Below, in pieces: positions 2,948-5,327 of a stretch of DNA of 20,540 nucleotides. The notes beneath the pieces are model-generated. The model made no database searches. It was not told the origin of the DNA and saw only the letters and a list, made by a program, of their open reading frames with translations. Origin of the DNA: a virus; the IMG/VR virus record IMGVR_UViG_3300032093_001035, positions 1 to 20,540 of that record; one strand, 5' to 3'. How positions within the stretch are numbered: the first letter of the stretch is position 1; every line of letters starts with the position of its first letter. The position numbers were made by a program, and so were the translations under genes.

Positions 2948-3175
2948 ATGGCTGACGAAAATAATGGACCGAATAAACAAAGAGATTTGGACACCCTTTA
3001 CGCTCTGGTGTTCCAAAGCGAAGCTGGCGCTAAAGTTCTGGCTGACCTACGACAATCGTATCTAGACCAACCGACTTGGTTTCCGGGTGATGATGCGTCT
3101 CATGGCTTCCACCGTGAGGGTCAGAACAGCGTTGTTCGTCAAATTGAAGGGCGTATCAAACGAGCGAGGACTTAA
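2948..3175 (+). CDS. Bbp19-like small phage structural protein
   Basis: A 75-residue protein with the layout of the Bbp19-like phage domain: F-x-S-E-x-G-A-x-V-L-A-D-L near residues 22-34, an aromatic segment containing F-P-G-D, then R-E-G-Q-N-S-V-V-R-Q-I ahead of a basic end. The family is named after a Bordetella phage BPP-1 protein and is usually found between portal and scaffold/capsid genes in podoviruses. Its exact role is unknown; a minor head or connector-associated part is likely. TGAGGA at 2938-2943 (overlapping the portal stop) serves as ribosome binding site four bases before the start. The stop TAA overlaps the scaffold ATG by one base. Confidence 0.75.
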   Translation: MADENNGPNKQRDLDTLYALVFQSEAGAKVLADLRQSYLDQPTWFPGDDASHGFHREGQNSVVRQIEGRIKRART

Positions 3176-3981
3176 TGACGGAAGATCAGACAACTCAGGC
3201 CGGTGAAGCCGATGGCCAAGCCGACAACCAGAGCCTGTTAACTCCTGAAATTGATAAGGTTGAGACGAAAACTGAGGTAGAAATCCCACATCGGGAACTT
3301 ACCGATGAAGAAAAAGCGGCTCAACAACCGGAAGAAGACGAGAAACTGGAGCGTCCAGACTATTGGCCAGAGAATTTCTGGTCGGATGCAGACGGTCCAG
3401 ATGTCGAAGCCCTAGCAAAGTCCTATACTGAACTCAGGGCGAAGTTCTCTCAGGGCCAACACAAAGCCCCAAAGGACGGCAAATACAATACAGAGACATT
3501 TAAGGCGGCTAATGTGCCTGATGATGACCCTGTTTTGCAAAGCTATCTCGCAACTGCAAAAGAAATCGGACTATCTCAGGATGCGTTCGAGAAGATTGCC
3601 AAGTCGTATCTTGATAACGTGACCGGCGCACTTGAGAAAATCCAAGTAGATCGGGAAGCGGAACTCAAGAAACTCGGCAATCGTGCTGATGACATTATTA
3701 AGGCGAACAACCAATGGCTCGGCAAACTTGGCCGGTCCATACTGAACGAAGCAGAATTGAACGCTGTCGCTCAAGCCTCTACATCGGCGGCTTTTGTGTC
3801 GGCTCTCAACAAAATTCGTCAGGCATCTGGTGAAATGGCCATCCCGACTGCCGGTGTTGCAACTGACCAGTCTGTATCACGGGATGATCTCTATGCCATG
3901 GTTGGAGACCCTAGATATGGTAAGGATATGGCGTTCACACGCAAGGTAGAGCGTATGTTCGCCGAAGCCATCCCGGGTTAA
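3175..3981 (+). CDS. Scaffolding / capsid assembly protein (T7 gp9-like)
   Basis: A 268-residue protein. Its N-terminal third (residues 1-65) is very acidic and Gln/Glu-rich and probably disordered. A helical middle includes P-D-Y-W-P-E-N-F-W near residue 61 and L-A-K-S-Y-T-E-L-R-A-K-F near 80. The C-terminal segment contains D-P-R-Y-G-K-D-M-A-F-T-R-K-V near residue 245. This is the organisation of podovirus capsid assembly proteins: the 'L-x-x-S-Y-x-E-L' helix and the 'D-x-R-Y' element close to the end, which contacts capsid protein. Length (T7 gp9 is about 307 residues) and position between portal and capsid agree. It would act inside the procapsid and leave before maturation. Its start overlaps the previous stop (TAATG at 3173-3177). 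A 152-base structured gap follows it. Confidence 0.88.
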   Translation: MTEDQTTQAGEADGQADNQSLLTPEIDKVETKTEVEIPHRELTDEEKAAQQPEEDEKLERPDYWPENFWSDADGPDVEALAKSYTELRAKFSQGQHKAPKDGKYNTETFKAANVPDDDPVLQSYLATAKEIGLSQDAFEKIAKSYLDNVTGALEKIQVDREAELKKLGNRADDIIKANNQWLGKLGRSILNEAELNAVAQASTSAAFVSALNKIRQASGEMAIPTAGVATDQSVSRDDLYAMVGDPRYGKDMAFTRKVERMFAEAIPG

Positions 3982-3982
3982 T

Positions 3983-4011
3983 TTGACACTTTTGGGCGGG
4001 TGGACTAAATA
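3983..4011 (+). promoter_or_regulatory. Candidate sigma70-like promoter before the capsid gene
   Basis: A perfect TTGACA (3983-3988) is followed, after exactly 17 bases, by TAAATA (4006-4011). The -35 match and spacing are ideal; the -10 box is weak (three of six positions match TATAAT). It lies just after the scaffold stop and would start transcription near 4017, giving extra transcription of the capsid gene. The -10 box falls exactly in the loop of an inverted repeat, so the region may instead be an RNA hairpin, or a promoter with a symmetric protein-binding site. In a T7-like phage, late genes are normally read by the phage polymerase, so a host-type promoter here would be unexpected. Confidence 0.4.
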
Positions 4012-4022
4012 TTCACCCGTCC
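3994..4022 (+). promoter_or_regulatory. 11-bp hairpin in the capsid leader
   Basis: The arms GGGCGGGTGGA (3994-4004) and TTCACCCGTCC (4012-4022) pair without a mismatch over 11 positions, two of them G-U, around the 7-base loop CTAAATA. No T-run follows, so it does not look like an intrinsic terminator. Possible roles are an mRNA processing or stabilising hairpin ahead of the capsid message (T7 uses RNase III hairpins for this purpose) or a symmetric operator around the overlapping -10-like box. The pairing is seen directly; the role is inferred. Confidence 0.65.
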
Positions 4023-4033
4023 GATAACCGAAA

Positions 4034-4096
4034 GGCCGGGCATCATGGTTGGGGAACCACAAAATCCCAAGTAAACGGCCCGTAAGGATAACCGTT
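4034..4096 (+). promoter_or_regulatory. Candidate pseudoknot and nested hairpins in the capsid 5' leader
   Basis: The hairpin TGGTT (4046-4050) / AACCA (4055-4059) closes a GGGG loop (4051-4054). That loop can pair with TCCC at 4065-4068, across the A-rich linker CAAAA (4060-4064), giving an H-type pseudoknot shape; one closing pair may have to open to supply loop length. Outer pairing is possible between GGCCG (4034-4038) and CGGCC (4076-4080). A further hairpin can form between AACGG (4074-4078) and CCGTT (4092-4096), competing with the outer stem. An 8-base direct repeat GATAACCG occurs at 4023-4030 and 4087-4094. The capsid ribosome binding site (GGAG, 4122-4125) follows about 25 bases later, so translational control of capsid is one possible role. 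I judged the fold by eye only. Confidence 0.4.
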
Positions 4097-4133
4097 GCGT
4101 GAGTAAACCTTAACCTCGAACGGAGCGATCCAA

Positions 4134-4976
4134 ATGGCACAGTTAATTTCTAATGCCTTTGTTACGCTGTTCGACGCGGAAGTAAAGCAAGCCTATCAAG
4201 CGTCACGCGCTTTGGCTGGCCTCGTCCGTGAGCGCAACGGTGTCGAAGGTTCTACAGTAAAGTTCCCGAAAATCGGCAAGGGTTCGGCCACAATCCGTGT
4301 CCCGCAGACCGATGTTTCGCCGCTTAACGTCAGCTATTCCCAAGTCACCGCTACGATGGCTGACTGGAACGCTGCCGAATACAGCGACATCTTCCATCAG
4401 CAAAAAGTCAACTTCGACGAGCGCCGTGAACTTGTTCAGGTCGTGTCGAACGCGATTGGCCGCCGTATGGACCAGATCATCCTCGACGCGCTTGCAGCTT
4501 CAAGCACATCGTTGACGGTCTCGAACGACATCGGTGCAGCGGACAGCAACCTTAACGTTGCAAAACTCCGCCGTGCTAAGAAGTTGCTCGATGCAAACAA
4601 CGTCCCAATGGACGGTCGTTGCATGATTATCTCGGCTTCGGGCCTTGAAGGTCTCCTCGGTGAAACTCAGACGACATCGGCTGATTTCAACTCAGTCCGC
4701 GCACTCGTCTCGGGCGAAATCGACACCTTCCTCGGCTTCAAGTTCGTGACGATTGGTGACCGCTCAGAAGGCGGCTTGCCGATTGACGGTTCTCTTGACC
4801 GCACCTGCTATGCGTTCCACCGCGATGCAGTCGGCATGGGTATCGGCATGGGCCAGCGCACCGAGATCAACTATGTCCCTGAAAAGACATCGTTCCTCGT
4901 AAACTCCATGTTCTCTGCCGGTGCAGTCGCCATTGACGACGAAGGCATCGTCAAGATCACCTGCCGCGAATCGTAA
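4134..4976 (+). CDS. Major capsid protein (HK97 fold, T7 gp10-type)
   Basis: A 280-residue major capsid protein of the podovirus capsid family, which builds the icosahedral shell. Order of elements: an N-terminal arm (1-40), an E-loop-like beta region (41-90), then the long 'spine' helix with F-D-E-R-R-E-L then G-R-R-M-D-Q-I-I-L-D-A-L (about 94-120). A P-domain helix L-R-R-A-K-K-L-L-D (145-153) leads into the strand R-C-M-I-I-S-A-S-G (162-170). The C-terminal beta part ends at S-A-G-A-V-A-I-D-D-E-G-I. It is shorter than T7 gp10A (345 residues) and has no C-terminal Ig-like decoration. I saw no sign of a programmed frameshift. GGAG at 4122-4125 lies eight bases before the ATG. Base composition is GC-rich (36 of 60 bases in 4441-4500), as expected for a highly expressed gene in this genome. 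Confidence 0.93.
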   Translation: MAQLISNAFVTLFDAEVKQAYQASRALAGLVRERNGVEGSTVKFPKIGKGSATIRVPQTDVSPLNVSYSQVTATMADWNAAEYSDIFHQQKVNFDERRELVQVVSNAIGRRMDQIILDALAASSTSLTVSNDIGAADSNLNVAKLRRAKKLLDANNVPMDGRCMIISASGLEGLLGETQTTSADFNSVRALVSGEIDTFLGFKFVTIGDRSEGGLPIDGSLDRTCYAFHRDAVGMGIGMGQRTEINYVPEKTSFLVNSMFSAGAVAIDDEGIVKITCRES

Positions 4977-4991
4977 GAAGGAGATTGAACT

Positions 4992-5264
4992 ATGGCTTTT
5001 GATTCTGCTGGCTGGAACACTATCGCAGCTAACAAGGCCGGAAATGCTCCGTCTTTGTATAGCTACAAGTCCGCCGATACACAGGCTACAATGAACACGG
5101 CTGCATACTTCAATTCAGTCGCGTCCATCGTAAAAGTCGGTGACGTTCTTTTTCTCTACGACACGACGACACCTTCGCTCGTCATCTCGTATGTGAATTC
5201 GAACAATGGCACGACCGTCGACATTGCTGACGGCACGACCATCTCGGCGACCGATACTGACTAA
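4992..5264 (+). CDS. Small capsid-associated protein (probable decoration/head accessory)
   Basis: A 90-residue protein without Cys and with few charged residues. It is probably all-beta. Recognisable blocks are A-G-W-N-T-I-A-A-N near the start, an A-x-Y-F-N-S-V segment around residues 38-44, V-G-D-V-L-F-L-Y near 49-56, and an end I-A-D-G-T-T-I-S-A-T-D-T-D. Similar short proteins ending in 'D-G-T-T-I-x-A-T-D-T-D' are, as far as I recall, frequent directly after the capsid gene in diverse phages. A capsid decoration or stabilising protein is therefore the best guess, but this is inferred from position and composition. AAGGAG at 4978-4983 is a strong ribosome binding site eight bases from the ATG. 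It ends 25 bases before the terminator, so it shares the high-expression capsid message. Confidence 0.75.
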   Translation: MAFDSAGWNTIAANKAGNAPSLYSYKSADTQATMNTAAYFNSVASIVKVGDVLFLYDTTTPSLVISYVNSNNGTTVDIADGTTISATDTD

Positions 5265-5288
5265 TCCAGTGTCCTTTTGAGTATTGAG

Positions 5289-5327
5289 AGCCCCGATTTG
5301 GTCACCCGAGTCGGGGCTTTCTTCTTT
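5289..5327 (+). terminator. Intrinsic terminator after the capsid genes
   Basis: The arms AGCCCCGA (5289-5296) and TCGGGGCT (5311-5318) pair perfectly over eight bases around a 14-base loop, and the T-rich tract TTCTTCTTT (5319-5327) follows at once. This is a standard intrinsic terminator shape. T7 places its T-phi terminator at the same point, between gene 10 and gene 11, to give abundant capsid message and reduced read-through into the tail genes. The same use is likely here. Confidence 0.85.

Follow-up and report, generated by a model that had tools for sequence, protein, structure and literature searches.

The capsid locus and its transcription unit

The window analyzed here, i.e., the whole stretch of 20,540 nucleotides from the IMG/VR record IMGVR_UViG_3300032093_001035 (positions 1 to 20,540), derives from a podovirus-type phage in which a head-tail connector, a scaffold, the capsid and a small gene are followed by the tail genes. 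The scaffold gene occupies 3175–3981, the major capsid protein gene 4134–4976 and the small gene 4992–5264. The capsid gene, which lies on the plus strand like the promoter, the ribosome-binding site and all RNA features described below, is recognized by its match to PHROG 3437 (major head protein, E 4.8e-59) and by tblastn to annotated capsid genes; among cultured phages, MEP301 of the Methylophilales has the nearest capsid (72.5%). No phage protein is made in larger amounts than the capsid protein, and in front of its gene there is, as the original prediction had it, a gap of 152 bases between the scaffold stop, which ends at 3981, and the capsid ATG at 4134. This gap holds a sigma70-type promoter (3983–4013) and then a leader RNA of about 115 nt, near the end of which the ribosome-binding site GGAG (4122–4125) and its spacer (together 4122–4133) lie outside the conserved fold, judging from sequence and an accessibility test. 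A capsid search of viral contigs recovered 80 loci, whose scaffold-capsid gaps, mostly 130–270 bases long, contain a promoter followed by a leader in which certain motifs recur. A leader-peptide attenuator was considered and rejected, as the 9-codon frame at 4045–4074 loses its ATG (which becomes CTG) in the close relative L002.

The capsid gene has its own transcription unit, usually with either a terminator or an inverted repeat (P0, described below) in front and a strong hairpin behind. In the relatives, intrinsic terminators cluster 150–200 nt 5' of the capsid start, and a scan of their leaders found no terminator between leader and capsid gene. In the source phage the unit of capsid and small gene is closed by a strong terminator-like hairpin at 5286–5321. 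A 3' hairpin occurs within 550 nt of the capsid stop in 55 of 68 relatives, whereas the adjoining stretch, taken as control, has one in 4 of 68; it is most often found 290–350 nt past the stop, behind the small gene, and its U tract is poor in many of them. At seven of the loci (L013, L016, L017, L021, L024, L028 and L223), a -35 box TTTACA was seen inside the loop of the upstream terminator hairpin, about 150 nt 5' of the capsid start.

Twin hairpins and a pseudoknot in the leader

The leader carries two conserved hairpins, neither of which figured in the original prediction: hairpin 1 at 4019–4041 (GUCCG-[AUAA]-CC-GAAA-GG-[C]-CGGGC), which is supported by covariation in the alignment A2, descriptor scans and the model R1, and hairpin 2 at 4074–4096 (AACGG-[C]-CC-GUAA-GG-[AUAA]-CCGUU), supported by covariation and an exact-pattern scan of viral contigs. 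Common to both is an asymmetric internal loop of four nucleotides opposite a single C, with the order of the strands swapped in hairpin 2. The general plan of hairpin 1 thus runs from a stem through a four-base strand, a stem, the loop and a stem to the single C and a final stem; the four-base strand takes the form ACAA, AUAA, CAUA, CUUA and others, with A or C first and A nearly always last. The 8-base repeat GATAACCG that had been noted earlier is indeed present at 4023–4030 and 4087–4094, and it corresponds to the long internal-loop strand of each hairpin with its flanks. The least variable part of the element is made up of the unpaired loop bases and their closing pairs. In L092, L093, L113, L127 and L137, the first hairpin has the same loop in the orientation of hairpin 2. 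A second module is seen in 6 of 26 pattern loci versus 6% of shuffles, a modest enrichment.

Between the hairpins, at 4046–4068, lies an H-type pseudoknot, which the original prediction had placed correctly in both its stems: UGGUU (4046–4050) pairs with AACCA (4055–4059) and GGGG (4051–4054) with UCCC (4065–4068), with a CAAAA linker and with AAGU (4069–4072) coming next. Most leaders have such a pseudoknot between their hairpins, with an A-rich linker and then AAG followed by C or U, and its helices covary across classes: both are rebuilt in class B (ACG/CGU with GCUGC/GCAGC) and again in class C (CGCU/AGCG with GGGCGU/AUGCCC). As the MAFFT cross-class alignment A3 set the pseudoknot pairing columns out of register, this feature was tested by direct enumeration with shuffles; taken singly, 24 of the 40 distinct leaders rank above 95% of shuffles in this respect (p ~0.02 for the source leader). 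It is missing, with little sequence between the hairpins, from L005, L009, L010, L015, L062, L067, L072, L222 and the Vibrio phage CKB-S2, and since some leaders thus do without it, the two hairpins are the core of the element.

A two-hairpin descriptor recognizes 59 of 67 distinct close-relative leaders, while its hits number 9 in 1340 dinucleotide shuffles and 22 in 2572 windows taken from elsewhere on these contigs. The eight leaders that it missed are also positive, six by covariance model, L004 by its inclusion in A2 and L006 by being nearly identical to L002, so that the element is present in all 67; these leaders are related and the counts are therefore not independent. Alignment A2, comprising 21 leaders of classes A and C plus that of CKB-S2 and made without structural input, has 97.2% of its cells paired, while slid controls reach at most 44%; 49 cells are changed on both sides, and two-sided changes are seen in 8 of its 12 pairs. 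Alignment A1, of 36 class B leaders, has 95.7% of its cells paired, with 65 double changes and two-sided changes in 12 of 18 pairs. RNAalifold, run unaided on A2, returned the same two hairpins including their internal loops. In contrast, the folding energy offers no clear excess: z is -1.8 for 3960–4150, 0.0 for the predicted transcript at 4019–4153 and on average -0.1 over 60 related leaders. As a thermodynamic excess is absent, the case is made by covariation. Both the descriptor and the covariation lie far above chance, and the proposal that a conserved and structured leader RNA precedes the capsid gene is borne out; asked whether base changes in relatives are compensated or break the stems, the leaders answer strongly in favor of an RNA element through abundant compensatory changes. 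On these comparative grounds, it is almost certain that a conserved structured RNA exists here.

Promoter, predicted transcript start and an overlapping inverted repeat

The sigma70-type promoter at 3983–4013 beats about 99% of shuffles at this position. Its -35 box TTGACA (3983–3988) can be combined with either of two -10 boxes, AATATT (4008–4013, 19-nt spacer) or TAAATA (4006–4011, 17-nt spacer). Wherever a leader has a clear promoter, the best -10 box nearly always ends 9–12 nt 5' of the long loop strand, and because this distance is constant the start of transcription is predicted at the foot of hairpin 1, which in the source leader is approximately G4019, the first base of the hairpin 1 stem.

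Overlapping the promoter is the inverted repeat P0 (3992–4024), whose arms at 3994–4002 and 4014–4022 pair better than in shuffles (p ~0.005). The original prediction had an 11-bp hairpin here, and the pairing is there, reaching 11 bp if extended and with G-U pairs included. However, it straddles the promoter and is probably no main part of the mRNA structure, as its 5' arm falls within the spacer that separates the -35 from the -10 box and is therefore probably absent from the mRNA. P0 would form only in read-through RNA, where it would capture the 5' strand of hairpin 1. In the source leader, the closing probability of hairpin 1 falls from 0.21 to 0.00 once the P0 arm is included; across leaders, added upstream sequence takes hairpin 1 down to a probability near zero where the arm is present, and leaders lacking the arm show no consistent change. 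The arm is found in 1 of 29 leaders with an upstream terminator versus 10 of 17 without one (Fisher 4e-5, uncorrected for the relatedness of the sequences), so that terminator and P0 are close to mutually exclusive.

Distribution across phages

A scan of viral contigs for the core of hairpin 2 (CGGCCCGNAAGGAYAACCG) returned 48 contigs. In 27 of these, the next gene encodes a relative of the source capsid family, with identities down to 22–35%; in L103, L105, L110, L116, L120 and L131, it encodes a T7-like capsid (L105 by PHROG 267, the others by inspection); and in several further contigs it encodes an acidic scaffold-like protein with no PHROG match. Among the loci where the element precedes such acidic scaffold-like proteins and not the capsid gene are L127, L128, L137, L091 and L093, with none of the four tested matching a PHROG. 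The hits in L117, L122 and L130 lie within genes and may have arisen by chance. Outside its building set, model R1 matches L223 (1e-13), L222 (2e-9), L128 (7e-8) and L220 (1e-6). With models R1 and R2, the element is found once per phage record searched, with one weak extra match in G001 (E 0.01). Among 297 genomes of one bacterial order there is one clear match, the known one; a weak partial match in G234 was dismissed as chance, for it adjoins cell genes with no capsid gene.

The contigs that bear the element come from many bacterial groups, and its carriers infect aquatic bacteria; among them are a Vibrio phage and a cultured phage of the Methylophilales (OM43-type). The twin hairpins were not found in the capsid relatives HTVC010P, Vibrio phages 1.138 and 1.257, ZCVPP1 and the SI2 group; by inspection, the two Vibrio phages and L138, a relative of CKB-S2, apparently have short hairpins instead. 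A short-core search of 50,697 phage isolates yielded only 17-base matches to Pseudomonas phages, with E of about 3, which were taken as chance.

Comparison with known RNAs

We know of no structured RNA family tied to the capsid genes of tailed DNA phages. At curated thresholds, Rfam release 15 gave no match in the source sequence or in 20 related loci, and at E up to 10 no meaningful match was found for the source, MEP301 or class C leaders, in keeping with the original prediction, which could match the leader to no described family. The Rfam family freshwater-2 (RF02980) was set aside as a chance match to the MEP301 leader, where it reaches 16 of the 49.9 bits set as threshold (E 2.5), mostly over the ribosome site. 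The literature searched describes no such leader, though an unnamed entry in the large catalogues of candidate structured RNAs is possible. Thus, the twin-hairpin capsid leaders appear to be an undescribed family.

Parallels might nevertheless be struck with three known systems. In the T4 genes e and soc, a hairpin spanning the promoter forms only in read-through RNA and masks the ribosome site. P0 likewise spans the promoter and is predicted to form only in read-through RNA, but in place of masking the ribosome site it would capture the 5' strand of a leader hairpin.

Like the capsid mRNA with its predicted start, the mRNAs of ompA, papA and aprE are highly expressed, begin directly in a structured region and leave the ribosome site free; however, their leaders are simple stem-loops, whereas the capsid leader is complex, shared by distant phages and most conserved in its unpaired loops. 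That 5'-terminal pairing protects mRNA is attributed to Bouvet & Belasco 1992, Emory et al. 1992 and Arnold et al. 1998 in a passage of PMC3997798.

The putL RNA of phage HK022, of about 70 nt, begins 3 nt from the start site, folds into two bulged stem-loops and binds RNA polymerase, its active form arising only through synthesis by the host polymerase (PMC9378689); put acts in cis (PMC9378689). The likeness lies in a promoter-proximal pair of bulged stem-loops with the first stem at the transcript start, which in the capsid leader is a predicted one. In contrast to put, the capsid leader adds a pseudoknot and an internal loop common to both hairpins, and it occurs once, before head genes, whereas put occurs twice per genome, in early operons. 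Neither model R1 nor R2 matches the HK022 genome at E up to 10. Homology to putL or putR was accordingly rejected in the face of no sequence or structure match, with the architecture alone in common.

Candidate functions of the leader

The domain is placed so as to form from RNA begun at its own promoter, and a function at the 5' end therefore fits best. If transcription starts at the foot of hairpin 1, as predicted, the mRNA 5' end would itself be paired into the fold, and the domain would work only as a true mRNA 5' end. The fold might then shield that end from decay, so that the capsid mRNA stays abundant, with the invariant internal loops and the pseudoknot making the fold compact or offering a site at which some common cellular factor docks; read-through RNA would either be stopped by the upstream terminator or have its hairpin 1 unfolded by P0. 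By analogy with the precedents cited above, mRNA shielding is the simplest 5'-end function. Our tentative preference, at somewhat short of even confidence, is accordingly for a 5'-end domain that maintains a high level of capsid mRNA, most likely through protection from decay. The mRNA stabilizer of the original prediction thus survives as the leading reading, its mechanism being conjectural, but a simple stabilizer needs neither an invariant loop nor a pseudoknot, and the invariant loops suggest specific recognition. A bare 5' stem would also be weak, as standard energy rules do not favor the fold (the mean z of -0.1 given above), and a further point against a stabilizer is that some capsid relatives manage without the element.

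These same features can be read in another way, namely that, as with put, which suppresses termination through the beta' zinc-binding domain of the polymerase, the nascent leader folds on its own polymerase and alters pausing or termination downstream, ensuring complete transcription of the capsid gene and those behind it. This we consider rather unlikely. It would account for two bulged hairpins at the predicted transcript start, for loops that are invariant while the stems change freely and for a fold that energy rules do not predict, and the spread of the contigs over many bacterial groups suggests a universal partner; yet the HK022 genome is matched by neither model, the single copy before head genes departs from the paired early-operon arrangement of put, and a strong terminator-like hairpin usually closes the unit, contrary to what a strong antiterminator would call for. 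Alternatively, a protein of phage or host origin, or else a small molecule, might bind both internal loops and the pseudoknot and thereby raise or lower capsid expression. A single asymmetric loop that occurs twice, each time with invariant closing pairs, does resemble paired binding sites, to which the pseudoknot would add a specific fold, and weak intrinsic stability suits a fold completed by its partner. In the source leader alone, the twin fold frees the ribosome site (accessibility 0.32 to 0.64). However, no general expression platform emerges: across 61 leaders, ribosome-site accessibility is independent of the fold (0.41 free, 0.46 with the twin fold forced and 0.46 shuffled), and there is no terminator between leader and gene. 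For the family as a whole, a riboswitch or translational operator masking the ribosome site was rejected on these two grounds. As the element precedes very different capsid proteins and putative scaffold genes, a single phage protein is an unlikely partner, the capsid protein included, and the capsid-responsive translation switch that had been suggested finds no general support. Control by a bound ligand or protein thus seems unlikely overall, a shade more so than an action on the polymerase. Finally, the region might be an ordinary promoter, with hairpins that arose by chance or serve as DNA operators; the unremarkable folding energy and the passage of the P0 repeat across the -10 box, as would be seen in a DNA operator, are in line with this, but it is contradicted by compensatory changes alongside conserved unpaired loops, recovered in A2 without structural input, and by the clear matches of the model to L223, L222 and L128 outside its building set, and is highly improbable.

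Returning to the preferred reading of a 5'-end domain, the element looks like a new RNA element controlling capsid production in many distantly related aquatic phages. A broader proposal, whose chances we place only just below even, is that these leaders are an undescribed, widespread phage RNA family constituting a portable control module for head genes, which would act on universal host machinery (RNA polymerase or the decay apparatus) from an authentic 5' end only and be off in read-through RNA. The element may reveal a target common to distantly related phages, and should it increase the yield of mRNA in cis across many hosts, it would be a candidate portable expression leader. Its presence in a cultured Methylophilales phage and a Vibrio phage makes it testable in the laboratory.

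Other leaders and loci

An SI2-based search for the twin leader mostly returned a different conserved leader. In phages with SI2-like capsids, the capsid leader follows its own terminator and promoter and displays the strongly conserved motifs GATGCAGACCCGCGAGG..CGGCACCCGGC..AGGCCC..GGCCCTCGATC..GATTGAAACCTTGAAGGAG; it is found at L083:800–1018 and, in the 200 nt 5' of the capsid start, at L140, L145, L153, L159, L165, L172, L176, L179 and L185. It is possibly a second unexplained leader RNA. The contig L220 (JAIXTP010000026.1, 186,520 bases), which belongs to a Hyphomicrobiales genome bin, carries a capsid gene 82% identical to that of the source phage behind the same leader, which points to a possible prophage and a clue to the host.
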